Below are positions 6,088 to 56,674 of a stretch of 64,000 nucleotides of DNA, one piece after another. The notes beneath the pieces were generated by a model. That model was not told where the DNA came from, searched no databases, and was given only the letters and a program-made list of their open reading frames with translations. A program made the translations under genes and the position numbers. This DNA is from Bacillus sp. FJAT-42376 (GTDB lineage Bacteria > Bacillota > Bacilli > Bacillales > Bacillaceae), in the NCBI RefSeq assembly GCF_003816055.1, contig NZ_CP033906.1, positions 2,666,001 to 2,730,000 of the forward strand. The letters are read 5' to 3'. How positions within the stretch are numbered: the stretch's first letter is position 1; the number at the start of each line of letters is the position of its first letter.

Positions 6088-6146
6088 AACTTGGCTGCCG
6101 ATTTCCGCTTAGGTGCTAAAAATCACCACTGCGGTTTAACATAGCC
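6088..6146. repeat. dispersed palindromic element, short copy 1
   Basis: AACTTGGCTG...GATTTCCGC at the left and GGTGCTAAAAATCACC...GGTTTAACATAGCC at the right match the ends of the longer copies at 48987 and 56489; the GC-rich middle is absent. It lies in the divergent fhs/metA upstream region. Confidence 0.6.
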
Positions 6147-6199
6147 TTATATGAAGCCGTTCACATTGTATCATATTCCTTACCTGTACCGGCCCTGAA

Positions 6200-6263
6200 G
6201 TGATTGATAATGAGAGAAACCGATGACAGCCCGGCTGCTCATCTTAATCCAATAAGATCGGAG
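6200..6263 (+). promoter_or_regulatory. candidate metA leader fold that hides the ribosome-binding site
   Basis: In the metA leader CCGAT (6220-6224) can pair exactly with ATCGG (6257-6261), which overlaps the GGAG ribosome-binding site at 6260-6263. A second fold between GATT/ATGAG and CTCAT/AATC is also possible. I see no S-box consensus (no GGCAACC or GGTGCTAAATCC in the right order). Regulation is inference from pairing only. Confidence 0.3.
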
Positions 6264-6271
6264 TGTTCCTC

Positions 6272-7195
6272 ATGCCTATTAATATCCCCTCAAATCTTCC
6301 TGCTAAGGCTATTCTTGAAGAAGAAAATATTTTTATTATGGACGAACACAGGGCGGCGGCTCAGGATATCCGCCCTCTCGATATATTGATCCTGAATCTG
6401 ATGCCCCAAAAAGAAAAAACAGAAACGCAGCTTCTCCGGCTGCTCGGCAACACCCCGCTGCAGGTCAATATCACCTTTCTTCATATGAAGTCCCATACAT
6501 CGAAAAATGTGGAACCGCGTCACCTTGAAGAATTCTATACGACATTTGACCACATCCGGCACAGGAGTTTTGACGGGCTGATCATTACCGGAGCGCCTGT
6601 GGAGCAGATGCCGTTTGAAGAGGTATCCTACTGGGAAGAGCTGCAGCAGATTCTGCACTGGAGCTCGAGTCAGGTGACCTCCACCCTGCATATATGCTGG
6701 GGTGCACAAGCCGGTCTCTACTTTCATTACGGTGTGGAAAAAGTGCCGCTTGAAACGAAATGCTTCGGAATCTTTGCCCATACCGTCAAAGCCCCTTCTG
6801 AAAAACTTGTCCGGGGCTTTGATGAAGAATTCTATGTTCCGCATTCCAGGCATACAGATATATCAAAAGAACAAGCTCTATCAAATAAAGATCTGATTAT
6901 TCTTTCTGAGTCCGACGAGGCCGGCGTATGCCTCTTAAAGTCAAGAGACGGGAAAAGGATCTTTCTGACCGGCCATCCGGAATATGATGCCTATACGCTT
7001 GATGAGGAATACAAAAGAGATCTTCATCGCGGGATTCCTATCAGCCTTCCGCTGCATTATTATAAAAATGACCAGCCTGAAAACGGTCCTTTATTCCGCT
7101 GGAAATCTCATGCAAGCCTTCTTTTTTCAAATTGGCTCAACTATTATGTCTATCAGGAAACTCCATTCGACTGGAAACATACGAATGGTAATTAA
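6272..7195 (+). CDS. metA: homoserine O-acetyltransferase (MetA family)
   Basis: 307 aa. Acylates homoserine in the first committed step of methionine synthesis. The catalytic cysteine is Cys142 in [11 protein letters not shown]. Residue 111 is Glu ([13 protein letters not shown]); in this family Glu at 111 goes with acetyl-CoA and Gly with succinyl-CoA, so acetyl transfer is expected despite the succinyltransferase name often attached. The ATG at 6272 (MPINIP, the family start) is preferred over an in-frame GTG at 6263, because GGAG at 6260 is correctly spaced for the ATG and overlaps the GTG. Monocistronic or with ugtP about 200 bases downstream. Confidence 0.94.
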
Positions 7196-7395
7196 ATGTA
7201 AGTCCTAAAAAGATATACCATGAAATTCCTGTATTTGTTAAAATAAGAGCATGGTTATGTTCGTTTCCCGTGAATATAACAAAGATTTAACATTATTTTT
7301 ATATTAGCAGGATATGAATATGTTACTCTATATAGTAAATTAAAGAGTATTGCAAAAGAAATGTGAGTGTTTTTATATTGATTGAGGTGAAAACG

Positions 7396-8556
7396 TTGAG
7401 ATCCAAACAAAAGGTTTTGATTCTGACGGCCAAGTATGGAAACGGGCATGTTCAGGTAGCAAACACATTGGTGAATCATTGCAGAAACATGGGAATAGAA
7501 AATGTGATTGTTTGTGATCTATATAATGAATCACATCCTGTTTTTTCAGAAATCACCCAGTATCTGTATTTAAAAAGCTTCTCAATCGGAAAACAATTCT
7601 ACCGCTTGTTCTACTACGGAGTAGACAAAATGTACAATAAACGAATGATGAATCTTTATTATAAAATGGGGCACAAAAGGCTTCATGAAATTATCTTAAA
7701 AGAGGATCCTGATATTATTATTAATACGTTTCCGATGATTGTCGTACCGGAGTACCGCAGAAGGACGGGAACGGTTATCCCTACATTTAACGTCATTACA
7801 GACTTCTGCCTTCATAAGATATGGGTGCATGAAAACATTGACAAGTATTATGTAGCGAACGAGCATGTGAAAGAAAAGATTGTCAGTCTCGGAATCCGGC
7901 CATCTGCCGTGAAAGTCACGGGGATTCCAATCCGTTCTCAATTCGAAGAAGAATTGGACCATGACCAGCTGATGGAGAAATACGAACTCGATCCCAATAA
8001 AAAGACTTTATTAATCATGGCTGGTGCCCATGGAGTTCTGAAAAATGTCAGAGAGCTTTGCCAGTCTTTTCTCCAGTATGATCATCTGCAGACGATTGTC
8101 GTCTGCGGGAAAAATCAGGTGCTGAAGGACAGCCTCACTCCCCTTGCCAATGCGTATCCGAAGCAAATTAAAGCACTTGGCTATGTAGAGCGTGTCGATG
8201 AGCTTTTCCGGATCAGCTCCTGCATGATCACGAAACCAGGAGGCATAACATTAAGTGAAGCATCGGCCATCGGGCTTCCGGTCATTTTATATAAGCCCGT
8301 ACCAGGCCAGGAGAAAGAGAATTCCATTTTCTTTGAAAATAAAGGAGCTGCCGTTGTCGTCAATAAATACGAAGAGATTCAGGAAAGTGTAGACTACCTG
8401 ATGAAAAATGAGCACCTTCTCGCCAATATGAAAACGAATATTAAAAAGCTTCACCACGCAAACTCTGCAGACGTCATTTTGGATGACATTATGGATGAAG
8501 CGATCCATATCATGAAAGAAAACGAGAAAAAGATGAAGGGTTCCGTGAATTATTAA
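7396..8556 (+). CDS. ugtP: processive diglucosyl-diacylglycerol synthase UgtP
   Basis: 386 aa. Membrane-associated GT28-type glycosyltransferase that moves glucose from UDP-glucose to diacylglycerol, making glycolipids that anchor lipoteichoic acid. In B. subtilis it also links carbon status to cell size through FtsZ. Markers: VLILTAKYGNGH near the N-terminus, YLYLKSFSIGKQFYRLFYYG (about 50-70), INTFPMIVVPEYRRRTG, and the donor site MITKPGGITLSEA. The start is TTG at 7396, preceded by GAGGTGA; longer readings lack a binding site and the family N-terminus fits TTG. It follows metA as in B. subtilis. Confidence 0.93.
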   Translation: MRSKQKVLILTAKYGNGHVQVANTLVNHCRNMGIENVIVCDLYNESHPVFSEITQYLYLKSFSIGKQFYRLFYYGVDKMYNKRMMNLYYKMGHKRLHEIILKEDPDIIINTFPMIVVPEYRRRTGTVIPTFNVITDFCLHKIWVHENIDKYYVANEHVKEKIVSLGIRPSAVKVTGIPIRSQFEEELDHDQLMEKYELDPNKKTLLIMAGAHGVLKNVRELCQSFLQYDHLQTIVVCGKNQVLKDSLTPLANAYPKQIKALGYVERVDELFRISSCMITKPGGITLSEASAIGLPVILYKPVPGQEKENSIFFENKGAAVVVNKYEEIQESVDYLMKNEHLLANMKTNIKKLHHANSADVILDDIMDEAIHIMKENEKKMKGSVNY

Positions 8557-8619
8557 TTTTCCCCTTCTTCATTGGCTTCTGGATGCTTTGGGAAATTTCT
8601 TGCATCTTGGAGGATAAAA

Positions 8620-9612
8620 ATGGATACAAGCACACACATCGCAATGGGGTTCGGTCTCGCCGGGCTTTCTTCTCTGGATCCTGCTGTCGCAGCAGATCCC
8701 GTTCTGGCACATGCTATTCTTGCAGGAACACTGCTCGGGTCAAATGCGCCTGATTTCGATTACGCTGTTAAACTTTTTAAAGGCGAGGGAGCGTACTTGA
8801 GGCATCATCGTGCCCGTTCCCATTCAGTGCCGGCATGGATCATATGGAGTGTCCTGCTTACAGCATGCATCTGGCCTTTTTTTTCGGGGATTGATCTTTC
8901 CCGGCTTTTCGGATGGACATTCGCTGCCGTTCTCATTCATGTTTTTGTGGATTTATTTAACTCCTACGGTACACAGGCGGGACGTCCCTTTTCAAAAAAA
9001 TGGATTACCTTTGACGCGATTTATATTTTTGATCCTTTCATCATGCTTCTTCATATCATCGGTTTTGCTCTTTGGGGCGGCGGCCTGCCTTCCGGCCAAG
9101 TGTTCGCCGCCGTATATACCGTCATGATTCTCTATATGCTTCAAAGGCTTTTTGCTTCCAGAAAGGTCAAGGGGAAAGCTGAAGCCCAAATTGCCTCTGA
9201 ATTTAAGAAAGTCAAAGCGATTCCGACCATTCGCTTTGGAATATGGCATGTATGTGCCGAATCGGAAACGGCTTTTATGACGGGTGAATACCGGCATGGA
9301 CAGTTCACGTGGATTCATACGTTTAAAAAAACCAGCCTCTCCTCTCCCGTTATACAAGCCGCTCTGAGCGATCCGAATGTCCAGCACTTTCATGTGAATG
9401 CTGAAATGGCTCATGCCATCCTCTGGAGAAAAACGGATGGGTACGAGGTCAGATGGTTTGATGTAAGGTATAGAACGAAACAGCACTATCCTTTTATGGC
9501 CATTGTCCACGTAGACTTCGATTTGAGAATTGCACAGTCCAAAACAGGCTGGCTTCATCATATCCAAACACTTGAACAGCCAGAAGCCTTAACTGAATCC
9601 GTATCCCATTAA
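8620..9612 (+). CDS. yfhP: membrane-bound metal-dependent hydrolase, YdjM/YfhP family
   Basis: 330 aa, multi-pass. The N-terminal two thirds match the YdjM-type membrane hydrolase family: THIAMGFGLAG, GSNAPDFDY, LRHHRARSHS (conserved His/Asp metal ligands) and VFVDLFNSYGTQ, set among four or five hydrophobic helices up to about residue 190. The last ~140 residues are soluble, as in YfhP. The start ATG at 8620 follows GGAGGA. In B. subtilis yfhP is elsewhere in the chromosome, so here it is an insertion into the ugtP-cspD interval or a lineage-specific placement. The substrate is unknown. Confidence 0.8.
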   Translation: MDTSTHIAMGFGLAGLSSLDPAVAADPVLAHAILAGTLLGSNAPDFDYAVKLFKGEGAYLRHHRARSHSVPAWIIWSVLLTACIWPFFSGIDLSRLFGWTFAAVLIHVFVDLFNSYGTQAGRPFSKKWITFDAIYIFDPFIMLLHIIGFALWGGGLPSGQVFAAVYTVMILYMLQRLFASRKVKGKAEAQIASEFKKVKAIPTIRFGIWHVCAESETAFMTGEYRHGQFTWIHTFKKTSLSSPVIQAALSDPNVQHFHVNAEMAHAILWRKTDGYEVRWFDVRYRTKQHYPFMAIVHVDFDLRIAQSKTGWLHHIQTLEQPEALTESVSH

Positions 9613-9632
9613 GAGGTGCTGTTAAGCTTTTA

Positions 9633-9666
9633 GAACCCCCCGTTCACTGAACGGGGGGTTCTTTTT
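9633..9666 (+). terminator. intrinsic terminator after yfhP-like gene
   Basis: AGAACCCCCCGTT pairs with AACGGGGGGTTCT around CACTG, followed by five T. It is placed 20 bases after the stop. Confidence 0.9.
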
Positions 9667-9710
9667 GTAAAAATTAGTTCATCCTCAAAGTCCTTGCATG
9701 CCTCTTCAGA

Positions 9711-10406
9711 TCAGCTTTGCTGACTTAAGTAAATTTCCTCAAAAGGCTGGACAACGACAAATCCATCTCCATCAAACTTCATTTGAATGGATTCCCCGCT
9801 CCCTCTTCCTAAAAATGTTTTCAGTGAAACATCTGTTACAAACTCAGGACTCAGGCTGCCAGACCAGGCGACGGTTGCATTGGGATCCGTATAAACCGGG
9901 CGCCCCTTTTCTGCAAAAAGCGTCAATGGCTCATAATGAGAAGTTATGGCAATCAGGCCTTTCCCTGATAAATGAATATTAAACAGGCCCCCTGAAAGCA
10001 TGCCTGCCACTTTTCGCATTAATTTTATATCCCATTCAATCGTCGGTTCAAACGCCAGTAAATCATTTCCATTCACTGTGATGGATTCATCGTTCAGAGA
10101 AAGGATTGTAATCTTTTTGCCTTGGTCCGCCAAATACAATTGCCCGCTGCCGCTCGCCTTCATGAGAGAGGAACCTTCCCCGGTAAAGGCTTTTTTTAAG
10201 AATTTCCCGACACCGTGTTCTAAAACCCCTTCCCTTTCAAACTTGATCTGTCCATTGTATGCAACCATGGCGCCTGCTTTGGACCATACGAGCCCATCTA
10301 AGTTCACTTCAAGCATTCTCGGAGTTTCCAGCTCAAAAAACCCTTGCTTACGGTCGGATTGCTTGGTTGCCCCCACGAATTCCTGTATTGAATAACGCTC
10401 TTCCAT
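9711..10406 (-). CDS. AIM24 family protein
   Basis: 231 aa. Looks like the AIM24/TIGR00266 beta-helix-type family: repeated Gly-rich strands (LVWSKAGAMVAYNGQIKF, GSGQLYLADQGKKI, SGKGLIAITSHYEP) and the FLGRGSGESIQMKF segment. No enzymatic function is known to me for bacterial members. The ATG at 10406 is chosen over an upstream in-frame start because AAAGGAGA precedes it and it overlaps the methyltransferase stop (TAATG), implying coupled translation. It is accessory relative to B. subtilis gene order. Confidence 0.78.
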   Translation of the reverse strand: MEERYSIQEFVGATKQSDRKQGFFELETPRMLEVNLDGLVWSKAGAMVAYNGQIKFEREGVLEHGVGKFLKKAFTGEGSSLMKASGSGQLYLADQGKKITILSLNDESITVNGNDLLAFEPTIEWDIKLMRKVAGMLSGGLFNIHLSGKGLIAITSHYEPLTLFAEKGRPVYTDPNATVAWSGSLSPEFVTDVSLKTFLGRGSGESIQMKFDGDGFVVVQPFEEIYLSQQS

Positions 10407-11107
10407 TACACCGTCTCCTTTTCGTTTCTGCATAGGAAAAGAGTTAAAAAAGAAAGAGCTTGCTTTAATTCCGCATTTAAATTTGCAGTCATCTCCTGTT
10501 TAACCCCCTCCTTATATACGGATAGCTGATCAATCGGTTTCAATTGATTTTCCTCCGCAAGCCTTGCAAACTCCCACGGCATCATCGTATTGCAGATAGC
10601 CGGCTCACTTTTCAGACGCGGGTAGCTATTGCTTCTCGGTCCGGCAGTCGGTCCGAGTACCGCAACGCAAGCGGCTCCCCCAGGTTTCAGCACCCGCACC
10701 AGCTCACGGATCGCCTGCAGAGGTTCAGCCACCCATTCAAGGCAGTTGATGACAAGGAGTGCGTCCGCCTCATTCTCTCCAGCCGAAAGGTTCATAACAT
10801 CGTCTTGAAGAAAGTCTAATCCGGAAATTTCAAATTCTTTGTTAGCGGTCGCAATCATTTCAGCAGAGAAATCAATACCGGTTACTTTATGTCCAAGCTG
10901 AGCCAGTTTAAAGGAACCGTATCCGTCCCCGCATCCAATATCAAGAACGCGGCATGCTGACGGGACGTGGCGGGAAAAGAAGGGGATAATTTGTTTTCTG
11001 CTCCCATTTTCCCACATATCCCTGCTCCTGCTGTGCCAGCTGCTTGAATTTTTATTCCATTGGGTCTCTGCTTCTTTACCCCAGTTAAAAACATTATTTC
11101 TTTCCAT
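10406..11107 (-). CDS. class I SAM-dependent methyltransferase
   Basis: 233 aa. SAM-binding motif I is VLDIGCGDGYGS (about 54-65), acidic motif II is VTGIDFSAEMI, and ALLVINCLEW with LKPGG is the usual post-motif region (Methyltransf_11 type). The target is unknown; the fold is shared by small-molecule, quinone and tRNA methyltransferases. The ATG at 11107 is preferred over the longer reading because GGAGGTG sits 6 bases upstream. It is coupled to the AIM24-like gene by a one-base overlap. Confidence 0.85.
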   Translation of the reverse strand: MERNNVFNWGKEAETQWNKNSSSWHSRSRDMWENGSRKQIIPFFSRHVPSACRVLDIGCGDGYGSFKLAQLGHKVTGIDFSAEMIATANKEFEISGLDFLQDDVMNLSAGENEADALLVINCLEWVAEPLQAIRELVRVLKPGGAACVAVLGPTAGPRSNSYPRLKSEPAICNTMMPWEFARLAEENQLKPIDQLSVYKEGVKQEMTANLNAELKQALSFLTLFLCRNEKETV

Positions 11108-11173
11108 ATGTACACCTCCGCCTCTACCACTTCTCCATTCACACTTCATTTTCCTTTGAATCGTGTCGAAAAC

Positions 11174-11208
11174 ACAAAAACAAGCAGCTACTACAGCTGC
11201 TTGTTTTC
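11174..11208 (-). terminator. intrinsic terminator containing the stop codon of the 49-aa gene
   Basis: Stem AACAAGCAGCT / AGCTGCTTGTT followed by U run; the TAG at 11191-11193 lies in the loop. It would end transcription of the 49-aa gene before the methyltransferase. Confidence 0.8.
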
Positions 11209-11340
11209 CGGTTCGTCATCAATCAAAATTGGTGCTGATTCGACATTAATTCGCTCAAAATCAGAGACTTTTGAATCATTTTTAAATGCTTCCTCTATTC
11301 CTTTGTTCGCTATATAGGATTCATCTTGTTTTCGTTTCAT
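11191..11340 (-). CDS. small hypothetical protein, 49 aa
   Basis: Highly charged (KRKQDE at the N-terminus, acidic C-terminal half ending ENKQL), without cysteines or hydrophobic stretches, so probably soluble and partly disordered. The ATG at 11340 has AAAGGCGG upstream. The reading frame ends exactly inside a strong terminator, which supports a true gene with its own transcript. I do not recognise a family. Confidence 0.55.
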   Translation of the reverse strand: MKRKQDESYIANKGIEEAFKNDSKVSDFERINVESAPILIDDEPENKQL

Positions 11341-11515
11341 GCGCAATCCGCCTTTCTCTGCTATTGATTCATTCGCAGTATGGATATCATGCCACAAAAA
11401 GACCCCTTACTTGCTGATCCGCACATTAAAAATAAGTTTTTTTAAATCGCTTACACGCCTCTCTGTGAACGCAGAAAAAATTCAGAAAGTTTCAACAGAA
11501 TCTTTTCTTCCCATC

Positions 11516-11626
11516 TTGACGGCAATGGCTTTTTTTTGTATATTAAAAACATCATTAGGCTAGGTGGTTTCCAATGATGCATTTGGCATAGTGGTGAATA
11601 CTTTTTATAGCGCTCTCATAGCGCTA
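11516..11626 (+). promoter_or_regulatory. SigA promoter and ~100-nt leader of cspD
   Basis: -35 TTGACG (11516-11521), 17-base spacer, -10 TATATT (11539-11544). The transcript would carry a leader of about 100 nt before the ATG, typical of cold-shock genes. It contains a hairpin from two copies of TAGCGCT (11608-11614 and 11619-11626) just ahead of the AGGAGG site at 11636. A role in cold regulation is inference from family precedent. Confidence 0.75.
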
Positions 11627-11650
11627 CAGAAATTAGGAGGATTATGTAAT

Positions 11651-11851
11651 ATGCAAAACGGTAAAGTTAAATGGTTCAACAACGAAAAAGGTTTCGGTTT
11701 TATTGAAGTGGAAGGCGGAGACGATGTATTCGTACACTTCACTGCCATTCAGGGAGACGGTTTTAAATCTCTGGAAGAAGGCCAGGAAGTATCTTTTGAA
11801 ATTGTTGAAGGAAATCGCGGACCTCAAGCTGCAAACGTTACAAAACTGTAA
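11651..11851 (+). CDS. cspD: cold shock protein CspD
   Basis: 66 aa, single cold-shock domain. Binds single-stranded RNA/DNA and prevents RNA structure at low temperature. RNP-1 is KGFGFIEV (about 13-20), RNP-2 is VFVHF (26-30), and the N-terminus [10 protein letters not shown] is classic. The start ATG follows AGGAGG. It is named cspD because it follows ugtP in the B. subtilis order; sequence alone would also fit cspB or cspC. Confidence 0.95.
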
Positions 11852-11886
11852 TCCAATATGAATAGGGAATGACCAATAGATCGGAA

Positions 11887-11915
11887 GAGACCGGATGGAA
11901 TATCCGGTCTCTTTT
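11887..11915 (+). terminator. intrinsic terminator of cspD
   Basis: GAGACCGGAT pairs perfectly with ATCCGGTCTC, followed by TTTTC. Confidence 0.88.
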
Positions 11916-12100: not shown

Positions 12101-12304
12101 GATCCCCCACAGCTCCCTTCTTCAGCAGGTTTTTGTTTAAAACCTGGATTTACCCTTCTTTTTACAAAAACTAATTCTTATGAACTATTTTTATCCGTTA
12201 TAACGAATATAACAGGAAATCGTGACATTTGCACTCTTTAACTCACAATTTTTGCATATTTTTTCTGAAGATGCCTTATCCTAATCGTTGGAGGTGCTTT
12301 TCAT

Positions 12305-12571: not shown

Positions 12572-12592
12572 CACAGCCTTCAGCTTTAAGAG

Positions 12593-12638: not shown

Positions 12639-12669
12639 CATTCATATATAGCAGCTGTACGATTTACGG

Positions 12670-12849: not shown

Positions 12850-12865
12850 CCTTCGCCCACTCCAT

Positions 12866-20218: not shown

Positions 20219-20312
20219 TTAGCTCTGTTAAACTTGGCTGTTGATTGCAGCTAGCAGGCGCTCGCCTTCCACTCCAATCAACAGGTGTTAAAAATCAACA
20301 TCAGGATTCAAC
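20219..20312. repeat. dispersed palindromic element, copy 2
   Basis: Starts TTAGCTCTGTTAAAC and ends near GGTGTTAAAAATCAACATCAGG; the core TTGATTGCAGCTAGCAGGCG and TTCCACTCCAATCAACAGG are shared with the copy at 48987. It is internally shortened. It is the main content of the 520-base stretch between dynA and the 27-aa gene; I see no gene in the rest of that stretch. Confidence 0.8.
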
Positions 20313-20316
20313 TTAA

Positions 20317-20358
20317 AAACCCCCTGAATGCTCATATAAGAGCTCCCAGAGGGTTTTG
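20317..20358 (-). terminator. intrinsic terminator downstream of the ypbQ/27-aa genes
   Basis: AACCCTCTG...AGCTC pairs with GAGCA..CAGGGGGTT, T-rich on both outer sides. It would stop the minus-strand bcsA-ypbQ-27-aa transcript just past its last gene, before the repeat copy; it could act in both directions. Confidence 0.6.
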
Positions 20359-23518: not shown

Positions 23519-23534
23519 GATGTCCCACTTGCTA

Positions 23535-23682
23535 TTTAACTTAGATTTGTTGGGGCAGATTTCCGCTTCAGGACTCCCTCATCCAGGGGCGTGCGGTGAG
23601 CCTCCGCGGCGCAAGCGCCTTTGGGGTCTCACCTGTCCCGCTGCTCCCGCAGGAGTGTCGCCCTTCCGCTTCAATCAGCCTG
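23535..23682. repeat. dispersed palindromic element, copy 3
   Basis: Carries the GC-rich core: CGGTGAGCCTCCGCGGC, GGGGTCTCACCTGTCCC, GCTGCTCCCGCAGGAGT and TTCCGCTTCAATCAGCC. Flanking TTAAC..AGATTTG at the left is diverged. It is between the convergent CheX-like gene and pbuX. Confidence 0.82.
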
Positions 23683-23698
23683 ACTCAAATTTTAAACG

Positions 23699-25741: not shown

Positions 25742-25812
25742 AAGCTATGTTAAACCTGGCTTGCGCTCGCTTTCCGCACCTTAAAACCACCAATACTTTT
25801 TAACATAGCCTT
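25742..25812. repeat. dispersed palindromic element, short copy 4, in the xpt leader
   Basis: Ends AAGCTATGTTAAAC and TTTTAACATAGCCTT are inverted copies of each other; the inside keeps only GCGCTCGCTTTCCGC and TTAAAACCACCA. It sits between the riboswitch terminator and the xpt start codon. Confidence 0.8.
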
Positions 25813-25868: not shown

Positions 25869-25911
25869 ATATAAACCTGAAGTAACTTCAGATTTGTCCG
25901 CACGTACGCTT

Positions 25912-25980
25912 ACTCATAGTCGGATTGTTAACGGCAATCCGGTAGAAACTTGCAGGCCATATCCCTGCGATTATATGAGT
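25912..25980 (-). promoter_or_regulatory. guanine-sensing purine riboswitch
   Basis: Minus-strand aptamer: ACTCATATAATCGC opening, ATATGGC and AAGTTTCTACC loops, closing GACTATGAGT. P1 is ACTCAT/ATGAGT. The base before TATGAGT is C (C74), which pairs with guanine and xanthine-type ligands rather than adenine (U). It turns off xpt-pbuX when guanine is plentiful. Confidence 0.97.
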
Positions 25981-26111
25981 ACAATTGAGTTAACTAGGAT
26001 TATAGCATGTATGACTGCTTTTGAAAAGATTTACGAACAAAAAAAACTTCAAGATTAAAAAACGTTCGCCTTTAGAGAAAATGAGGTTTTTACAAACGAT
26101 CCATTCACCCT

Positions 26112-26162: not shown

Positions 26163-26297
26163 GGCTCTTTTAAACCTGGCTGCTGATTGCACCTGGCAGT
26201 CGTTCGCTTATTCTTGGGCGGGCGATGAGCTTTGAGTCTTAAGTCTTCCGCTCCAGTCAGCAAATGTTAAAATCAACAACGTGTTTTAACATAGCCT
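26163..26297. repeat. dispersed palindromic element, copy 5
   Basis: GGCTCTTTTAAACCTGGCTG at the left, GGCGGGCGATGAGC core, TCCGCTCCAGTCAGCAAATG and GTTTTAACATAGCC at the right. It lies between the ypwA stop codon and its terminator. Confidence 0.78.
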
Positions 26298-27919: not shown

Positions 27920-27967
27920 AGCTTCTGATGGCAGGTGCAAAAATCAACATCACGCTTTAACAGAGCC
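27920..27967. repeat. dispersed palindromic element, fragment 6
   Basis: GCTTCTGATGGCAGGTG and AAAATCAACATCACGCTTTAACAGAGCC match the right end of copies 9 and 10. Only one end is present. Confidence 0.6.
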
Positions 27968-39470: not shown

Positions 39471-39638
39471 ATGATGGGAAGAGGCGAACATTTTAACCAC
39501 AAGCAAAAGGGACACAAACCGGAACAGCCGGCATATGGAAAAGACGTTCCGGCTAAACAGCATGAAGCTACAGGCTATGCAATTGAAACGACTGCATCAG
39601 CGGATCACGGTCCTGTTCAAGTGATATCTGAAAAATAA
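39471..39638 (+). CDS. small hydrophilic protein, 55 aa
   Basis: Begins MMGRGEHFNHKQKGHKPEQ and ends ADHGPVQVISEK; rich in His, Gly, Gln and Lys, no cysteine, probably disordered. A very strong double GGAGGAAGGAGGG precedes the two ATGs. Composition resembles minor spore proteins, but I cannot assign a family. Confidence 0.55.
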   Translation: MMGRGEHFNHKQKGHKPEQPAYGKDVPAKQHEATGYAIETTASADHGPVQVISEK

Positions 39639-39774
39639 AGCTCTGATTGCAGCTGGCAGTCGTTCGCTTATCCATGGGCGGGCTGTGAGTCTCCTCCTGG
39701 TTTCGCCTGGGCCGCTTCTTAGCCCGGAGTCTCTCGCCATGGTCTTAAATATCAGCAACATGCTTTAAAATAGC
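39637..39774. repeat. dispersed palindromic element, copy 7
   Basis: AGCTCTGATTGCAGCTGGCAG at the left (TTAAAC segment missing), GGGCGGGCTGTGAGTC core, ATCAGCAACATGCTTTAAAATAGC at the right. It starts at the stop codon of the 55-aa gene and ends at the yppE terminator. Confidence 0.75.
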
Positions 39775-40780: not shown

Positions 40781-40908
40781 TTTGGCTGATTTCTGCTCCA
40801 GGCTGCTTGTTCATTTGGCGGGCGGTGAGCCTGCCCGGCGAATTTGCACATGCCGGGTCTCACCTGTCCTGCTGCTCATAGCACCTTCTGCTCCAATCAG
40901 CCAATATC
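40781..40908. repeat. dispersed palindromic element, copy 8
   Basis: GGCTGATTTCTGCTCCAGGC at the left, GGCGGGCGGTGAGCCTGCC, CCGGGTCTCACCTGTCC and TCTGCTCCAATCAGCC at the right. Left and right ends are complementary (GGCTGATT / AATCAGCC). The TTAAAC outer arms are absent. Lies between convergent sspM and yppC. Confidence 0.8.
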
Positions 40909-40919
40909 AAGTAGGTTCA

Positions 40920-40966
40920 AAAAAAATAAACCTCCTGAATGCCATGAGCGTTCAGGAGGTTTTGGT
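40920..40966. terminator. bidirectional terminator between sspM and yppC
   Basis: AAACCTCCTGAA pairs with TTCAGGAGGTTT; T runs on both sides (A8 to the left, TTTTGGTTTT to the right). Confidence 0.88.
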
Positions 40967-48883: not shown

Positions 48884-48913
48884 ATTATACTAATCCTCTT
48901 CCCGGATGGTCAA
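48884..48913 (-). promoter_or_regulatory. SigA promoter of asnS
   Basis: -35 TTGACC (48913-48908), 18-base spacer, -10 TATAAT (48889-48884). The short leader contains a CGGAC/GTCCG hairpin immediately before the GGAGGG site. Confidence 0.8.
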
Positions 48914-48934
48914 CAAGAGCCGGTTACGTTAAAC

Positions 48935-48953
48935 GGGCGGTTTAACACCGCCC
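48935..48953 (-). terminator. hairpin, possible terminator of aspB
   Basis: GGGCGG / CCGCCC with GTTT after it on the minus strand; weak U run. Lies beyond the repeat copy that follows aspB. Confidence 0.4.
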
Positions 48954-48986
48954 TCATCATCCCGCGCCATGCAGCTTCTTTATCCT

Positions 48987-49132
48987 TAGCTCTGTTAAAC
49001 TTAGCTGTTGATTGCAGCTAGCAGGCCGTGAGCCTCCCCGCCGCTTTGCGTCCTGCTGCTCTTAGCAGGAGTCCCGCACCTTCCACTCCAATCAACAGGT
49101 GTTAAAATCACCATCAGGCTTTAACAGAGCCT
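48987..49132. repeat. dispersed palindromic element, copy 9
   Basis: TTAGCTCTGTTAAACTTAGC at the left and GGCTTTAACAGAGCCTTA at the right are inverted. The inside has GCCGTGAGCCTCCCCGCCG, GCTGCTCTTAGCAGGAGT and TTCCACTCCAATCAACAGG. Fills most of the 320 bases between aspB and asnS. Confidence 0.88.
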
Positions 49133-49158
49133 TAAAAGCATTATGGAACTATTTTTCT

Positions 49159-50343
49159 TTACGCTTTGTGTTTCTCCATAAAGCGCTTCATTCTGGAAAT
49201 CGCTTCGGTCAGAAGATCCTGAGAGGTCGCATAGGACAATCTGACATGGTCAGGCGAACCGAATCCTGAACCTGGAACAAGGGCTACTTTTTCTTCTTCA
49301 AGCAGGGCTTCTACGAAGGCATCGACAGAATCATGTCCTGTCATTTCCGCTGCTTCTGCTGCATTGGCGAACAGATAAAATGCTCCTTGAGGCTTGATGC
49401 AGGAAAAGCCCGGTATCTGTACAAGCAAATCATACGTTTCATTCAGTCTGCTTTCAAACGCTTTTCTCATCGCTTCAACCGGCTCCTGTGAACCTCTGTA
49501 AGCTTCAATTGCACCGTATTGGGCCATGGAGGCGGGATTGGATGTACTATGGCTCGCAAGGTTCGTCATAGCGCTGATAATATCCTTTGGACCTGCTGCA
49601 TAACCAATTCTCCATCCAGTCATGGAATGGGATTTTGACACGCCATTAATGACGACTGTCCGCTCTTTAAGCTCAGGAGAAATTTCAGCAATGGATATAT
49701 GATTAGCCTTTCCATAGATGAGCTTTTCATAAATTTCATCGGATATAATGAGCAAATCGTGTTTTTCACACACTTCTCCTATAGCTTTCAGCTCTTCAAG
49801 GGAGTAGATCATGCCTGTCGGATTGCTCGGGGAGTTGATGATGACAGCTTTCGTTTTCGCATTTGCTGCCTTTTCAATCTGTTCAGGTGTTATTTTAAAC
49901 TGTTTCTCTTCCGTCCCTTCAATAATGACCGGAATTCCGCCGGCAAGCTTCACTTGCTCCGGATAGCTTACCCAGTATGGAGATGGAACGATCACTTCAT
50001 CTCCCTCGTTTAGGATCACTTGGAACAGGGTGTAAAGTGCATGCTTTGCGCCAGTGCAGACAATAATTTCAGAATGCGCATAATCCAGTTTCTGATCAGT
50101 TTTAAACTTTTCGATGATGGCATCTTTAAGTGTCTTTAAACCGCCTGATGGAGTATATTTCGTGAAGCCTTCTTCCATCGAAGCCGCCGCTGCTTTAATA
50201 ATGGCTTCAGGAGTGTTAAAATCCGGTTCACCCGCTCCAAGACCAATTACATCATGTCCTGCATCCTTTAATTCTTTTGCCTTGGCTGTGATCGCCAAAG
50301 TTGTTGAAGGTGTTAATGAAGCTGCTCGATCCGCTAATTTCAT
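49159..50343 (-). CDS. aspB: aspartate aminotransferase
   Basis: 394 aa, PLP fold type I. Interconverts aspartate and oxaloacetate with glutamate/2-oxoglutarate. PLP lysine is Lys237 in NGVSKSHSMTGWRIG; SPSNPTGMIY and DEIYEKLIY are family motifs; substrate arginine in HVRLSYATS. ATG at 50343 with GGAGGGAAC upstream. Order ypmA-ypmB-aspB-asnS as in B. subtilis. Confidence 0.95.
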   Translation of the reverse strand: MKLADRAASLTPSTTLAITAKAKELKDAGHDVIGLGAGEPDFNTPEAIIKAAAASMEEGFTKYTPSGGLKTLKDAIIEKFKTDQKLDYAHSEIIVCTGAKHALYTLFQVILNEGDEVIVPSPYWVSYPEQVKLAGGIPVIIEGTEEKQFKITPEQIEKAANAKTKAVIINSPSNPTGMIYSLEELKAIGEVCEKHDLLIISDEIYEKLIYGKANHISIAEISPELKERTVVINGVSKSHSMTGWRIGYAAGPKDIISAMTNLASHSTSNPASMAQYGAIEAYRGSQEPVEAMRKAFESRLNETYDLLVQIPGFSCIKPQGAFYLFANAAEAAEMTGHDSVDAFVEALLEEEKVALVPGSGFGSPDHVRLSYATSQDLLTEAISRMKRFMEKHKA

Positions 50344-50357
50344 TTTCCTGTTCCCTC

Positions 50358-50882
50358 CTATTTCACTGCATAATGAGCCAATAACTTTCCGGTTTTAAAT
50401 TCATAGTAATCATATGTATAACGGTCGTAACTGTCGATATATTTTACTTCCCAAACCGGCACCCGGCTTTCCTTTTGCATCAGGATGCCCATTTTGCTGC
50501 TGATCATTTTTCGGGGAGAATAATTCTTTTCTGCAAGATTTTCTGCTTGTTTTGCGGTAATCCCAGCAGACAATTCCAATACCGCCGGCTTAGCACCGAG
50601 GTCCCTTGCCGGAAGGAGTGCGACTGACTCTTTGCCTTTAGAATTTATTCCGTGTACAGCATAATAAGAAGCAGGTTTGTTATCCGAGCCGGGATAAGGT
50701 CCGTTAAACGTGGTCACCTTATCAGCAGATACCAGCATTCCTCCGCTGATCACGGCAGATTTCGCACGGTTCTGCCCTTTATTCAGCTCATTTATACCGC
50801 CCTGAACGGCAGAAAACACGTACCAGCCGGCAGCAAGAGCCGCCATAACAGCAATAATTGCGAACAGCCATCTTTTTTTCAT
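50358..50882 (-). CDS. ypmB: membrane-anchored protein YpmB
   Basis: 174 aa. One N-terminal membrane helix (RWLFAIIAVMAALAAGWYVF), then an extracytoplasmic part with two PepSY-like units (GITAKQAENLAEKNY; VPVWEVKYIDSYDRYTYDYY). Function unknown; the DUF5590/PepSY type is often linked to protease inhibition or cell-wall processes. ATG at 50882 with GGAGCGG; an upstream frame lacks a site. Confidence 0.87.
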   Translation of the reverse strand: MKKRWLFAIIAVMAALAAGWYVFSAVQGGINELNKGQNRAKSAVISGGMLVSADKVTTFNGPYPGSDNKPASYYAVHGINSKGKESVALLPARDLGAKPAVLELSAGITAKQAENLAEKNYSPRKMISSKMGILMQKESRVPVWEVKYIDSYDRYTYDYYEFKTGKLLAHYAVK

Positions 50883-50895
50883 GATGTCCGCTCCG

Positions 50896-51066
50896 TTATG
50901 TCCGGTAAATCGTGAATACAGCCTGGTTTTTATCTTCTTCATCAAGGGCCAGGCCAAACATCAGATTTTCCCGTTTCAGTGTCCGGTTTAATGAATCCAC
51001 AATTTTGTACAAATCATCAGAATGTTCTACTTTAACAGTAGAGAGAATTTCAATTTTGCTTTCCAT
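50896..51066 (-). CDS. ypmA: small protein YpmA
   Basis: 56 aa: MESKIEILSTVKVEHSDDL to FTIYRT, matching the DUF4264 family of short conserved proteins between dinG and ypmB. ATG at 51066 follows GCAGGAGGAA. The long open frame upstream of it is fortuitous. Function unknown. Confidence 0.86.
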   Translation of the reverse strand: MESKIEILSTVKVEHSDDLYKIVDSLNRTLKRENLMFGLALDEEDKNQAVFTIYRT

Positions 51067-51298
51067 TACAAATTCCTCCTGCGAACCACAAATATTGTAA
51101 CTAATATATGCCCGGGTCCGGGACAAACTACTAGTACGACAGCAAAGACTGCTGTACATGTTCCCATTATAACAAGAACCGTTCCATGTAGTGAAAATAA
51201 ATTTCTCCCTAACCCACACCAACCATTGACTAGAGGCGCAGCCTGCCCTTCTAGTCCTTTTTTTGTTTACCATTCCTTGCGCTATCGGCAGCGGAGGA

Positions 51299-54100
51299 TT
51301 AGTTTTGAAGCCAATCGGATGCCATTTCCGCAAGCTCCTCTGCCGGACTGTAATGAACGCCTACCTCCGGCATTGCCTGCAGAAAATATTTTCCGTAGCG
51401 GGCTGACAAAATGCGGCGGTCGAGCACAATCAATAGGCCTTTATCTTTTTCCGTCCGGATCAGCCGCCCAAATCCCTGTTTATATTTTAAAATGGCTTCC
51501 GGCAATGAATATTCATAAAATGCGTTGATTCCGGCATTCTCAAGCTTTTTGGATTTAGCTGATACAACGGGCTGATCGGGTGGCGCAAACGGCAATCTGA
51601 CCATCATGACCGCTTTTACTTGTTCGCCGGGAAAATCAATTCCCTCCCAAAAACTATTCGTGCCGAGCAGAATACTTTTATCGGCCTGGCGGAACGATCT
51701 GATCAGCTTCATCTTGCTCCCACCCCCTATTCCCTGTCCGAGAATCGCATAATCATCCAATTCTTCCCCTTCTTTCAGCCAGGTATAGGTGCTTTTCAGC
51801 ATATCATAAGAGGTAAAGAGAACAAGAATTTTACCGTTCACGGCAGGGGCAAATTTTTTGATGGCGGAAGCCACCGCCTCTGTATATACTTCCTGTGAAA
51901 CATCCCTGATTCCGGGAACGTCTGATGGGACGAGCAGCTTTGTTTGCTTTTTGTAATCAAACGAAGAAGGAAGCATAAGCTGTTTAGGATAAAAATCGGT
52001 CAAGCCGAGCTGTCTGATGGCATGATTGAAAGACCCATTGACAGAAAGTGTTCCCGATACAAGAATCACCGAACGCTTTTTTTCAAACAGAGAGGCCGCA
52101 AGCTGTTCGGAAACATCAACAGGCCTGCTGCAGATCACGGCTGCATTTTTGGCCCCTTTTGCTTCCGCTTCAATCCAAAAAGCGGAATCGCCGCTGCCGT
52201 TTGAAAACAGATCATTGATTGCTTCACTCGCGTATTCAAACCGGTTGGCATAAGAGAAATATTCATTCATCTTCGACTGGGTTTTCAAAGGAAGATCAGC
52301 CGCATTCAATAATTGTTTTTGCTTTTTCATGACAAAAAGAATGTCATATATGTAAAACCGGATCCGGTCCCCCAATTCTTCAATCACAGACCAATAAGGT
52401 TCTGCCGCGGCATGATCCGCGACTGAATAGGAAACACGGTTCGCTGATCCTTTTTTTCTTTTCAATACAAAAGAATGCAGCGTGGTAAAAAAATCATTCA
52501 ATTCATCTGCAAATTCTTTCAGTAAAACATCCATTTCCAGGCAGTAGTCATAGCCTTTTTCCCCTTCGAGCTCAAACCAGTCTGCTACCGATGCCAGCAA
52601 ATCCCCGGAGTACAGGTGTCCAATCCTCTGAAGCCATGAATGCATCGTTACATATTCCAATCTGTACCCCCACTGCTCACCCGCCATTCTTTCTAAATGG
52701 TGGGCTTCATCGATCAGCAGATCATCAAAGTCAGGAAGCTGCTTTCTTTCGGCAGCCGCATCGTTCAGCAGTAATGCATGGTTTACGATAATAAGGGTGC
52801 TGTGCTCTGCTTTTTTCCTTGCCAGATCATAAAAGGACCGTTCCCGATATGGATTCTTCGGATGATTTGAAAGTTTATCGTGATGGATTCTCATCCAAAG
52901 ATTTTTACCGCCTGAGGGCAGATTTAATTCATCCGCATCTCCTGTTTCTGTTTGCATCAGCCATATCAATATTTGGGCCTTCGCCAGGTTTGAGTCATAA
53001 TTCTCATCTGTTTCCAGCAGAGAAAGCTCAAATTTGTGAGGGCAAATATAATGAGATTCCCCTTTTAAAATGACCGCTGTTATCTCTTTAGAAAAGATGC
53101 GCCCGGCTAGTTTTGCATCCCTGTCAATCAGCTGATTTTGCAGCGCTGTCGTATGGGTGCTGTAGACAATTCTAGTTCCGTTATCCATTGCGTATTTGAT
53201 TGCAGGAATTAAAAGCCCCAGTGACTTTCCGCTGCCGGCCGGCGCTTCTGCCAGCATATGCTCCCGATTAAGCAGGGCTTCATACACTTCAGCTATCAGC
53301 TTTTGCTGCTGCGGCCTTGATTCGTAACGATCCAATCTGCTTTTCATGATTTCTGTCAGTTCGCTAAGTTCAGGCTGTGTTTCTTTCTTTCCCTGCTGTT
53401 CCATTTCTTCGTTCCTGTTAAAAACAGGCGAGAATGCAAACGAGCCGAATAGATCCACATCTCCGCCCTCTTTGCTGAATCCCGATTGGTTACCTTCTGC
53501 GATCAGCTCATCCAGCAATTCATGGAGATCACTGATAAAAACGTCGGAAAGATTTCTCAGCTTTCTAAGTGTCACCATAGGCAGTGCTGACAGCTTTTTC
53601 AGGATGATTCCAAAAATTTCAGCGGTCACTTCTGCGTCGCTGTCTGCCTGGTGAGGCCGGTCATGCTGAATCGCCAGTTCCCGGCAAAGCTCGGACAGCT
53701 TATAGCTTTCAAATGACGGGAACATCATTCGCGAAAGCTCAACCGTGTCCATGATACCGCCCGAAAAACGGGGATAGCCTGCCTGTTCAAGCTCTGCCTG
53801 GACAAAGGACAAATCAAAATGAACATTATGGGCAACGAACCATGCGCCATCCAGCATGCTGTTTACTTTGTCAGCAATTTCTGAAAAGACAGGTGCATTT
53901 TCCACGTCCTCATCACTAATTCCCGTCAAGGATTGTATAAAAGCGGGGATGGGCTGAAGAGGATTGACATAACTCATAAAACGGTCTGTTATTTTCCCAT
54001 CTTCAAAAACCACGGCCGCAAATTGTATAATTTTTTCTCCCTTTTTAGGGGAAGTTCCAGTTGTTTCAACGTCCAAAACGACATAACGCCGATGCTCCAT
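51299..54100 (-). CDS. dinG: DinG-type nuclease-helicase fusion
   Basis: 933 aa. N-terminal DnaQ-like 3'-5' exonuclease: YVVLDVETTGTSPKKG (Asp-x-Glu), AHNVHFDLSF, HQADSDAEVT. Then an SF2 helicase-like part: APAGSGKSLGLLIP (Walker A), LLIDEAHHLER (DEAH), and GFGRLIRTEKD (motif VI). The region holding the Fe-S cysteines in other DinG proteins has only one Cys (HYICPHKF), so no cluster; such proteins in staphylococci act mainly as exonucleases. The ATG at 54100 is chosen over a GTG at 54109 because GAGGTG precedes it. Confidence 0.92.
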   Translation of the reverse strand: MEHRRYVVLDVETTGTSPKKGEKIIQFAAVVFEDGKITDRFMSYVNPLQPIPAFIQSLTGISDEDVENAPVFSEIADKVNSMLDGAWFVAHNVHFDLSFVQAELEQAGYPRFSGGIMDTVELSRMMFPSFESYKLSELCRELAIQHDRPHQADSDAEVTAEIFGIILKKLSALPMVTLRKLRNLSDVFISDLHELLDELIAEGNQSGFSKEGGDVDLFGSFAFSPVFNRNEEMEQQGKKETQPELSELTEIMKSRLDRYESRPQQQKLIAEVYEALLNREHMLAEAPAGSGKSLGLLIPAIKYAMDNGTRIVYSTHTTALQNQLIDRDAKLAGRIFSKEITAVILKGESHYICPHKFELSLLETDENYDSNLAKAQILIWLMQTETGDADELNLPSGGKNLWMRIHHDKLSNHPKNPYRERSFYDLARKKAEHSTLIIVNHALLLNDAAAERKQLPDFDDLLIDEAHHLERMAGEQWGYRLEYVTMHSWLQRIGHLYSGDLLASVADWFELEGEKGYDYCLEMDVLLKEFADELNDFFTTLHSFVLKRKKGSANRVSYSVADHAAAEPYWSVIEELGDRIRFYIYDILFVMKKQKQLLNAADLPLKTQSKMNEYFSYANRFEYASEAINDLFSNGSGDSAFWIEAEAKGAKNAAVICSRPVDVSEQLAASLFEKKRSVILVSGTLSVNGSFNHAIRQLGLTDFYPKQLMLPSSFDYKKQTKLLVPSDVPGIRDVSQEVYTEAVASAIKKFAPAVNGKILVLFTSYDMLKSTYTWLKEGEELDDYAILGQGIGGGSKMKLIRSFRQADKSILLGTNSFWEGIDFPGEQVKAVMMVRLPFAPPDQPVVSAKSKKLENAGINAFYEYSLPEAILKYKQGFGRLIRTEKDKGLLIVLDRRILSARYGKYFLQAMPEVGVHYSPAEELAEMASDWLQN

Positions 54101-54183
54101 TATTGACACCTCAATCAGCTTGCATTCCTGCTTATTGTACCATTAACCGAAGCAAAACGCTCGGGAGCCCCGAAGAAATGAAA

Positions 54184-54208
54184 ACAGCCGGCGATACGGC
54201 AGCCGGCC
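54184..54208 (-). terminator. intrinsic terminator of panD
   Basis: CCGGC / GCCGG stem (AGCCGGC palindromic arms) followed by TGTTTTC on the minus strand, about 20 bases after the panD stop. Moderate. Confidence 0.6.
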
Positions 54209-54226
54209 AATTTCCGCTTAATATAG

Positions 54227-54613
54227 TTACATGCGGACGGTTGATGCGGGTTCCGTCCCCAGCATTTCAACAATCCGGTTATTTTCATCCATTATGGCAA
54301 CCTTTGGAGTATGGGTGCGGATTTTTTCTTCCGCCATCATTGCGTACGAAATGATAATGACCACATCTCCTTCCTGAACCAGTCTGGCAGCTGCCCCATT
54401 TAAGCAGACGACACCGGAATCCCTTGGACCGGGAATAATATAGGTTTCAAAACGTGCGCCGTTATTATTATTAACAATCTGCACTTTTTCATTGGCTGCC
54501 ATCCCGACAGCATCCAGAAGATCTTCGTCAATCGTAATGCTTCCCACATAATTTAAGTTGGCTTCTGTAACACGGGCACGATGGATTTTGGCATTCATCA
54601 TGGTGCGGAACAT
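54227..54613 (-). CDS. panD: aspartate 1-decarboxylase
   Basis: 128 aa. Makes beta-alanine for pantothenate. The pyruvoyl group forms by self-cleavage at Gly24-Ser25 (NYVGSITID). Also [19 protein letters not shown] segment near residue 70. Last gene of panB-panC-panD, 21 bases after panC. ATG at 54613 with GGAGGA upstream. Confidence 0.97.
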
Positions 54614-54634
54614 AGGATCTCCTCCAGTAGGTGA

Positions 54635-55492
54635 TTATTTATCGTTTACCTTCCAAATCAAGTTATCAATCAGCCTGGCACCGGAAAATTTAACAGCGGC
54701 AGCCGCAATGATTTCCCGGCTGTTTTCCGTGACCGGAATCAGTTCAGGGTATTGCAAGACTTCGATATAGTCCATTTCTGCCCCTTTAATTTCTCTCAGC
54801 AGGCTTAATATATGGTTCTGGATATCTTCAGCACTTCGATTTGCCTCTTTTGCAAAGGTATAGCCAGCCTGGAGACTTTCGTAAATTTTCGGTGCCTCTT
54901 TTCGCTCTGCTTCTGTCAAAAACACATTTCTTGAGCTTTTAGCCAGACCATCTTCTTCCCGGACTGTATTTACCGGCACTATATCCAGGGGAAAGAAGAA
55001 CTCATCGACGAGTCCTCTGATCACAGCTACTTGCTGAGCATCCTTTTGGCCGAAATACGCACGGTCAGGCTGAATAATATGAAACAGCTTGGTCAGGACG
55101 GTGACCACCCCGTCAAAATGACCGGGTCTTGATTTTCCGCACAGCACATCTGTTCTCGCAGCGGCTTTAAGAGTAACGTAAGGAGCATGGCCATACATTT
55201 CGTCAGGTTCCGGGGTGAATACGAGATCCGCTCCTGCCTCTTCAGCCAATTTCAAATCTCTTTCAATATCCCGGGGATAAGATTCAAAATCTTCATTTGG
55301 ACCGAATTGAGTTGGATTTACAAAAATGCTGACGGCTACTTTTTCATTTTCTTTTCGTGCCCGTCTCATTAATTCCAGATGTCCTTCATGCAAATAGCCC
55401 ATAGTAGGCACAAATCCAAGTGAACGGCTGTTTTCTGCTTTCCATCCTGCCACAATTTCTTTAGCTTCGCTCACTTTTTTTACAACGATCAT
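54635..55492 (-). CDS. panC: pantothenate synthetase
   Basis: 285 aa. ATP-dependent joining of pantoate and beta-alanine. [15 protein letters not shown] holds the HxGH nucleotidyl motif; [21 protein letters not shown] and KSSRNVFL are further active-site blocks. ATG overlaps the panB stop (ATGA at 55489-55492). Complete. Confidence 0.97.
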
Positions 55493-56328
55493 TTTGAGAC
55501 CCCTCCGTACAAGCCATTCAGCAATTCTTCATTCATCGTAAACGTGTGCTCCTGTGCAGGAAACTTCCGTTTTTTCACATCTTCAACATATTGGTTCAAC
55601 GCCTTTTGCATTTCTCCATCTGCGTTTCCATATTGTTTAACGAACTTCGGTGTCCGCTCCACTCCATACCCTGCTACATCATGATAGACAAGAACCTGTC
55701 CGTCTGTATCCGCACCGGCACCGATTCCGATTACCGGAATGGCGAGCTGCTCTGACAGGAGAGCGGCAAGCTGACGGGGAACACATTCTAAAACAAGAGC
55801 GATGGCGCCAGCCTGTTCGCATTGTTTTGCATCATGAAGCAATTTCGCCGCAGCTTCAGGCGTTTTGCCCTGCACCTTATATCCGCCAAGCACTCCGACA
55901 GACTGCGGCGTCAGACCAAGATGTGCAACAACAGGAACTCCCGCTTTCGTTAATGCATCGATCATGCCGGCAACTTCGTCTGCTCCCTCCAGCTTTAACG
56001 CATCACTTCCAGCTTCCTGCATCAGCCTTGCACCATTCCGAAGCGTATCTTCTTTGGAAAGATGGTAACTCATAAAGGGCATATCCGTTACGATAAACGT
56101 CTCAGGAGCCCCCCTTTTTACAGCTTTCGTATGATGAATCATATCTTCCATCGTTACCGGAATGGTTGAATCATACCCCAGTACAACCATTCCAAGGGAA
56201 TCCCCTACGAGAATCATGTCTGCACCCGATTTTTCCGCTTGTTTGGCAGACGGATAATCATAGGCTGTAATCATGGCAATCGCTTCGGAATCCTGTTTCA
56301 TTTTTTGAAAATCTGCTCTGCTTTTCAT
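55489..56328 (-). CDS. panB: 3-methyl-2-oxobutanoate hydroxymethyltransferase
   Basis: 279 aa. First pantothenate step, adding a hydroxymethyl group from methylene-[49 protein letters not shown] and [15 protein letters not shown] are family blocks; Glu in ALVLECVP is the base. ATG at 56328 follows GAGGAGGG. A candidate regulatory leader with a terminator lies directly upstream. Confidence 0.97.
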
Positions 56329-56372
56329 TCGTTTCCCTCCTCTTTATAGAGGAACAAAGGGATCCACAACAT

Positions 56373-56408
56373 AAAAATTCCTTCTTCTGCAAGTGGAGAA
56401 GAAGGAAT
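56373..56408 (-). terminator. leader terminator (attenuator candidate) before panB
   Basis: ATTCCTTCTTCT pairs perfectly with AGAAGAAGGAAT around CCACTTGC and is followed by TTTTTA on the minus strand, 45 bases ahead of the panB start. Its place in front of the first gene, not behind one, suggests attenuation. Confidence 0.7.
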
Positions 56409-56423
56409 GGACATACCAAATTA

Positions 56424-56462
56424 GCCGGATCATTCCTCTGTCCCAGTCCTCTGGATCAAGGC
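56424..56462 (-). promoter_or_regulatory. candidate structured leader element of panBCD
   Basis: On the minus strand GCC-TT-GATC and GATC-C-GGC can pair around a loop holding CAGAGGACTGGGACAGAGG, with the direct repeat AGAGGA twice. It lies immediately before the leader terminator. A 'pan' motif RNA is known before pantothenate genes in Firmicutes; whether this is one I cannot verify by eye. Confidence 0.4.
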
Positions 56463-56488
56463 AGATTTACTATGGTTTATTTTTTGGA

Positions 56489-56674
56489 TAAGCTCTGTTA
56501 AACTTTGCTATTGATTTCCGTTACAGGCGCTCGCTTTCCGCGGGGCGGGCGGTGAGCCTCCTCGCCGCTTTGCGCCTGCGGGGTCACACCTGTCCCGCTG
56601 CTCCCGCAGGAGTCTCGCGCCTTCCACTACAATCAACTGGTGTTAAAATCAACAAAATGCTTTAACATAGCCTA
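56489..56674. repeat. dispersed palindromic element, copy 10 (longest)
   Basis: TAAGCTCTGTTAAAC at the left, CTTTAACATAGCCTA at the right. Inside: GGCGCTCGCTTTCCGCGGGG, CGGGCGGTGAGCCTCC, GGGGTCACACCTGTCCCGC, TGCTCCCGCAGGAGTCTCG and ACAATCAACTGGTG. It appears to be the fullest copy, about 186 bases, between birA and the panB leader. Confidence 0.9.

Follow-up and report, generated by a model that had tools for sequence, protein, structure and literature searches.

Are the ten palindromic repeats that were reported between the genes of a 64,000-nucleotide stretch of Bacillus sp. FJAT-42376 (contig NZ_CP033906.1, positions 2,666,001 to 2,730,000; the whole stretch is called the window here) a mobile element, a family of structured RNAs, or something of both, and what moved them? 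When the sequence was read at each of the ten places, all were found to hold the described repeat, so that the original prediction of ten copies or fragments in 64 kb was confirmed. We conclude that the repeats are very probably copies and remnants of an IS1595-family miniature inverted-repeat transposable element (MITE) whose cargo is a structured hairpin. The IS1595-type MITE identity is well supported by the sequence comparisons given below.

The only complete copy in the window is that at 56491..56671 on the plus strand (about 183 bp), which lies in the gap between panB and birA, gave a full-length nhmmer match and consists of a left arm, a hairpin core and a right arm; its imperfect terminal inverted repeats, RGCTCTGTTAAAC and GYTTTAACAKAGCC, enclose the GC-rich core (74% GC at 56525-56625, compared to 45% for the whole window). 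By alignment, the element begins with the left arm RGCTCTGTTAAACTTGGCTGTTGATT, passes into the core and closes with a longer right arm ending GCTTTAACATAGCC, the terminal inverted repeats being imperfect, about 13 bp long and accompanied by a conserved sub-terminal TGTTGAT. Full copies were mostly 180-187 bp in length and hairpin-less copies 77-99 bp, with no transposase gene.

A genome search for further copies had been proposed with the original prediction, and such copies exist in large number. By nhmmer and pattern searches (no covariance model was used for this), the arm with its sub-terminal motif (25 bp, up to 2 mismatches) was matched 180 times in the 4.25-Mb genome, where one complete element can yield two matches, compared to 0 times for the reversed pattern; the 12-bp arm alone (up to 1 mismatch) was matched 370 times, compared to 71 times when reversed, and BLAST with one copy as query reported 45 matches (40 of 228 first-look candidates scored). 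Within a 464-kb sample consisting of the window and 20 evenly spaced 20-kb stretches, a hidden Markov model (HMM) of the element gave 32 merged loci, with 25 of these in the 400 kb outside the window. Extrapolation to the genome gave approximately 265-295 copies (window left out or included), which is an undercount, since 3 of the 10 window copies escaped the HMM. Nearly all of the sampled loci (31 of 32) lie in gaps between predicted open reading frames (ORFs), with one inside a predicted 102-aa ORF. The claim that all window copies are intergenic held with the crude ORF caller used here, except that the copy at 40782 touches and overlaps the edge of an unconfirmed 95-aa ORF. Among the matches listed, the arm pattern was also found in genomes of Metabacillus, Cytobacillus, Niallia, Neobacillus and Bacillus and in one Bacillota record. 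A plasmid search with the right arm (E <=10) returned 162 weakly matching records, 139 of them from Acinetobacter, and the whole element matched 17 plasmid records, 10 by the core only, 7 including the left arm and 0 at the right end.

Evidence for transposition was found in the sequences flanking the copies. Only copies whose two ends could both be located were scored for target duplications, with the element start set at the R of RGCTCTG, and the 68 placements were reduced to 62 by removing duplicates and edges (46 from this genome and 16 from other genomes). Of the 46 own copies, 12 had 8-bp flanks matching at 8/8 positions and 14 at 7/8, compared to 0.7 and 1.2 with shuffled right flanks; 26 of the 46 both-armed copies therefore match at 7/8 or better, where about 1.9 would be expected on shuffling, and the remaining 20 match at 6 of 8 positions or fewer. 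For the 16 copies from other genomes, the match was 0.75 at position 8 but had fallen to 0.25 one base further on, at position 9. The complete window copy (L004; L and G numbers denote sampled loci and genomes) has a duplication matching at 7/8, and in five congeners the same gap holds no element between alignable flanks, measuring 32-37 bases in four of them compared to 225 here (159 compared to 311 for G004). In this comparison, for which flanks were missing for 3 of 50 site-genome pairs, recognisable congener copies, which may or may not be the same insertions, were seen in 4 of the 10 window gaps (6088 in G003, 20221 in G004, and 26163 and 39637 in G001). The inverted repeats at the ends, the 8-bp target duplications, the element-free sites and the large number of copies thus bear out the suggestion of a non-autonomous mobile element.

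The mover of this element is most likely an IS1595-family transposase, to judge from shared ends and gene content. Arm matches in low-copy genomes pointed, by eye, to IS1595-type ORFs. Searching 80 genomes of the family with PF12762 gave 38 matches, from which 30 loci were fetched, and element-type ends (pattern GGCTNTGTTAA-N5..7-TGTTGAT, up to 2 mismatches) were present on at least one side of 14 of these 30 loci and on both sides of 7, and for 11 further loci on at least one side of 3 and both sides of 2. At control loci, at least one such end was found for 0 of 5 PF01609, 1 of 30 Y1_Tnp (at both ends) and 1 of 20 xpt loci. The nine two-ended IS1595 loci had duplications of 8/8 in seven cases, 7/8 in one and 4/8 in one. 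Two tested ORFs scored 209 bits against NF033547 (transpos_IS1595; cut-off 75) and a partial copy from this genome 152.6 bits, with all three named IS1595 by NCBIfam. PF12762 was present in 15 of 24 genomes with arms compared to 5 of 56 without (p = 1.5e-6) and, outside the genus, in 9 of 18 compared to 5 of 56 (p = 4e-4), these tests being inflated by shared ancestry. A 316-aa IS1595 frame with two matching ends and an 8/8 duplication was found in the congener G001 (L139), and the two partial IS1595 copies of the FJAT-42376 genome have one matching end each. Acting in trans, the transposase would have recognised the ends of the element and, by DDE transposition, inserted the 183-bp unit in AT-rich DNA between genes; this genome's own autonomous IS1595 copy may have decayed later, leaving copies that now mostly diverge and lose their hairpin by slippage.

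Other candidates for the mover were rejected. PF01609 transposases had 0 matches in this genome, and none of the 5 congener loci had IS1595-type ends. Among the fetched loci, arm-like sites formed two long pairs, but the genes between them are ordinary ones, and in the window the other long arm pairs merely combine arms of different copies. At L098:534-1525 and L104, IS1595-type ends were also seen to enclose or adjoin putative passenger genes, judged by eye from translations to be a putative lipoprotein and a 215-aa ORF.

Several observations weigh against an IS1595-type MITE and have to be set beside this evidence. PF12762 is lacking in 9 of the 24 arm genomes, including the high-copy genomes G069 and G070, and the PF12762 search of the FJAT-42376 genome itself gave no full-length IS1595 match, with only a 206-aa frame and a 160-aa frame containing one stop, although a MITE need not have an intact partner in its genome and can persist after that partner is lost. 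The genome G243, whose cores have IS1595-like ends, is likewise absent from the PF12762 matches. Own copies mostly begin their left end with A, whereas IS1595 mostly has G there. In 9 of the 46 own copies the flanks match at 4 of 8 positions or fewer (including the window copies 48988 and 20221), and the flank match of own copies continues to position 9 (0.67), so that it is the copies from other genomes, together with IS1595, that set the length at 8 bp. The congeners are other species, with 1500-base flanks, largely coding, that are 65-88% identical, and the empty sites are consequently not base-perfect. Across the order, the presence of the core was independent of IS1595 (20 of 42 IS1595 genomes compared to 79 of 157 others, p = 0.86).

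The core was found well beyond the range of this MITE. Of the 199 genomes sampled from the order, 99 held its exact central motif, which thereby occurred in 49 of 98 genera, with up to 145 copies per genome, while the reversed motif occurred in 0 of the 199 and a scan of viral contigs for the exact motif gave none. For covariation analysis, 42 loci were tried, 32 passed two flanking-motif filters and 30 were used, several of them from one genome. All were pre-chosen by the exact central motif, and the invariance of the motif columns is by construction; the covarying pairs lie outside these columns. Standard pairs made up 87.8% over 35 pairs, cells changed on both sides numbered 179 compared to 69 in shuffled alignments, and the covariation score was 0.388 compared to 0.133 (standard deviation 0.010) when shuffled and 0.074-0.099 when slid. 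Little or no excess was found for further pair types (56 compared to 54.9 shuffled) or pairs with a double change (21 compared to 18.4). The idea of a structured family thus holds for the core, whose stems covary across the order, while the terminal arms vary too little to tell. No Rfam family scored above threshold at the element positions in the window, and for six core or element loci searched at E <=5 only sub-threshold matches touched the core or element (mir-3156 in L175, E 1.4; tsr24 in L005, E 3.3), a T-box in L175 being located away from the core.

Arms and core were said to vary independently; this is right as an observation, and its apparent causes are loss of the hairpin between short direct repeats and the presence of the core in other wrappers. 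In short copies (77-99 bp), GCTTTCC is joined to a downstream TTCCGCT or TTCCACT, or other short repeats are joined, with at least 4 different deletion junctions by eye, and the arm-only copies appear to have lost the hairpin in this way. Several of the short copies are themselves flanked by good duplications, and they may therefore either have moved as the short form or have lost the hairpin post-insertion. Some own copies sit within a larger repeat whose ends resemble those of the IS1182 element L095 (named by NCBIfam, 443.8 bits, cut-off 270), giving a MITE within a MITE; such nested copies, with IS1182-type ends containing an IS1595-type element, are at L035:17563-17888, L045:7781-8099, L050:5342-5567 and L051:1210-1430. 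Around 15 core matches in the 464-kb sample, IS1182-type ends were present on both sides of 2 and on one side of 3, compared to 1.25% per side at random positions. One kind of IS1182-ended host repeat holds the element in both orientations (by eye), which suggests at least two insertions. Cores of other genomes also had IS1182-like ends nearby, those of L236, L251, L169 and L187 on both sides, and an order-wide IS1182 profile was matched at E<=0.001 in 132 of 199 genomes and passed its cut-off in 63. The IS1595-like wrapper of G243 had both ends placed in 6 of 20 loci, with duplications of 8/8 in three, 7/8 in one, and 5/8 and 4/8 in two, and the cores of G249 lie in what may be a further wrapper.

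An order-wide hairpin module with changing wrappers is supported by these counts and the covariation. The core would be a separate module, spreading mainly as a rider in MITEs of several IS families, with its fold kept by selection or by palindrome-templated mutation. Tentatively, and aware that the balance may well tip the other way, we propose that it is an undescribed structured module of the order, which MITEs belonging to unrelated transposase families (at least IS1595 and IS1182, with nested MITEs here) have taken up since its fold favours its carriers, for example by shielding neighbouring transcription or by recruiting a host protein. As a side observation, hybrid copies (L234, L236, L242 and L182) have a left half of core and a right half of another repeat (GGCTTAGAGGCACATGTCATAAGTCAAACCGACC and variants), the halves appearing to have been exchanged.

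The covariation itself could be the product of template switching in quasi-palindromes, with no selection on an RNA or DNA fold, and we regard this as a serious possibility, though the less likely one. The core is an imperfect palindrome in many copies, the setting in which palindrome-templated mutation is expected; short repeats at the base of the hairpin have given rise to deletions, which points to replication slippage there, and two of the five covariation measures, those for further pair types and double changes, lay near the shuffles. However, non-palindromic parts are kept (a bulged A and a GCTTTCC/AGGAGTC internal loop), which is a weak objection as they were partly required at selection. 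Covarying core stems would also be expected if the whole element were a structured RNA family that acts in cis and is kept for its function, as a regulator or 3' end element, with the arms as its outer stem. Elements in co-directional gaps were antisense in 44 of 60 cases (four pooled sets, some core-only; p = 0.0004), and in 27 of 40 when the own sample was left out (p = 0.04). Divergent gaps were avoided: they held 1 of 31 elements, compared to a background in which 54 of 206 gaps were divergent (p = 0.0026), and across the four sets they held 6 of 87. These orientation counts omit copies without a gene on both sides (6 in the four element sets, 1 among order-wide cores), and the background gaps derive from a crude ORF caller. 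No such bias was seen among copies of congeners (5 of 10) or among cores from across the order (12 of 23), neighbouring genes vary from copy to copy in the window, and a simple terminator scan of 48900-56800 marked neither of the two elements there. As target duplications and element-free gaps show insertion, an RNA family of this kind is improbable. Placement and orientation are weak evidence for an effect on transcripts, which insertion preference and purifying selection would explain equally well.

A RAYT (Y1 tyrosine transposase) could also be what moves the core, which would then be REPIN-like and have its IS1595 arms only by accident, given that Y1_Tnp proteins are found in 159 of 199 genomes of the order and in all 30 arm- or core-rich genomes, most of which were picked knowing this. 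However, a clear core lay within about 1.5 kb at just 3 of 30 Y1_Tnp loci (one per genome; no background rate), at least 2 of the 30 being IS200-like rather than RAYT-like, and at least 8 core-bearing genomes had no Y1_Tnp match, including G172 with 28 exact cores (among genomes listed). Y1 transposition is not known to make 8-bp target duplications, which the armed copies have, and a RAYT was rejected as the mover, with only a very slight likelihood left to it. The IS1595-type MITE with a hairpin cargo is preferred.

The remaining window copies, all given on the plus strand, are incomplete or lack the IS1595 arms, and their neighbour genes differ. Full IS1595-type arms or remnants of them are present on both sides at 6088, 20221, 25742, 26163, 48988 and 56491. 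Copy 48988..49131 (nhmmer), between asnS and an aspartate aminotransferase-like gene, has both arms and lacks part of the core; its duplication is just 3/8, and its gap is shorter and element-free in 5 of 5 congeners. Both arms are also kept at 26163..26296 (nhmmer), where most of the core is deleted and the duplication matches at 8/8. Short forms are found at 20221..20318 (nhmmer; core hairpin deleted, degenerate right end, duplication 3/8), at 6088..6147 in the fhs/metA gap (degenerate left arm; the corresponding G003 gap has a full copy) and at 25742..25811 (70 bp) in the xpt leader, a gap that is element-free in five congeners, yet hardly shorter in G004. From this last copy, the xpt start codon is 24 nt downstream (xpt, on the minus strand, encodes xanthine phosphoribosyltransferase), and a purine riboswitch aptamer at 25897-25998 (minus strand) lies upstream of the copy, placing the copy inside the regulated leader. 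A degenerate copy with a damaged left arm and part of the core is at 39637..39774 (nhmmer, E 1.2e-16), and a right-arm fragment only, identified by reading the sequence, at 27920..27966. Core copies without IS1595 arms were found by nhmmer at 23532..23696, with flanks common to another locus of the same genome (L042:18049), and at 40782..40920, with flanks similar to L038:10825. A repeated sequence that is terminator-like by eye, CAGGGAAACGCTTAGAATGCGTCTCCCTG and its variants, flanks several core copies (23532, L042:18049, L048 and L050).

Among known systems, REP/REPIN elements with RAYT transposases are likewise abundant intergenic hairpins; the present element differs in that no clear core lies near 27 of 30 Y1 loci and that its armed copies are flanked by 8-bp duplications. 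The bcr1 repeat is reportedly specific to the B. cereus group, as called in the title of a 2004 paper, whereas the present core spans the order; the two are set apart by description, not sequence. Like the element described here, bcr1-bcr3 of the Bacillus cereus group are, in the account consulted, high-copy intergenic MITE-like repeats in Bacillaceae, often within transcripts (PMC3446304). The Bhal-1 family of Bacillus halodurans (74 bp, 36 copies, as summarised in PMC2267715) is also a repeated intergenic stem-loop in a related bacterium, and a relation, compared by description only, is possible. Closest in size, 8-bp target duplications and ends common to an IS1595 element is the ISHwa6-related MITE of H. 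walsbyi, given as 165 bp with 7 copies and 8-bp direct repeats in PMC3852290; compared with that description, copies here are far more numerous and carry a cargo hairpin found independently across the order. The element was not found in print by our literature search, for which subscription papers on bcr repeats and IS1595, and supplements, were outside scope.

These findings assign a repeat that is abundant in this genome to a family, name a mover that can be tested, and reveal a covarying hairpin, common to half of the sampled genera of the order, that travels in different transposon wrappers. If its fold is functional, the hairpin would be a module of cargo so common that it could influence genome stability or the ends of transcripts in many bacilli; if it is not, the hairpin would be a striking natural case of palindrome-templated evolution, which could mislead searches for structured RNAs.

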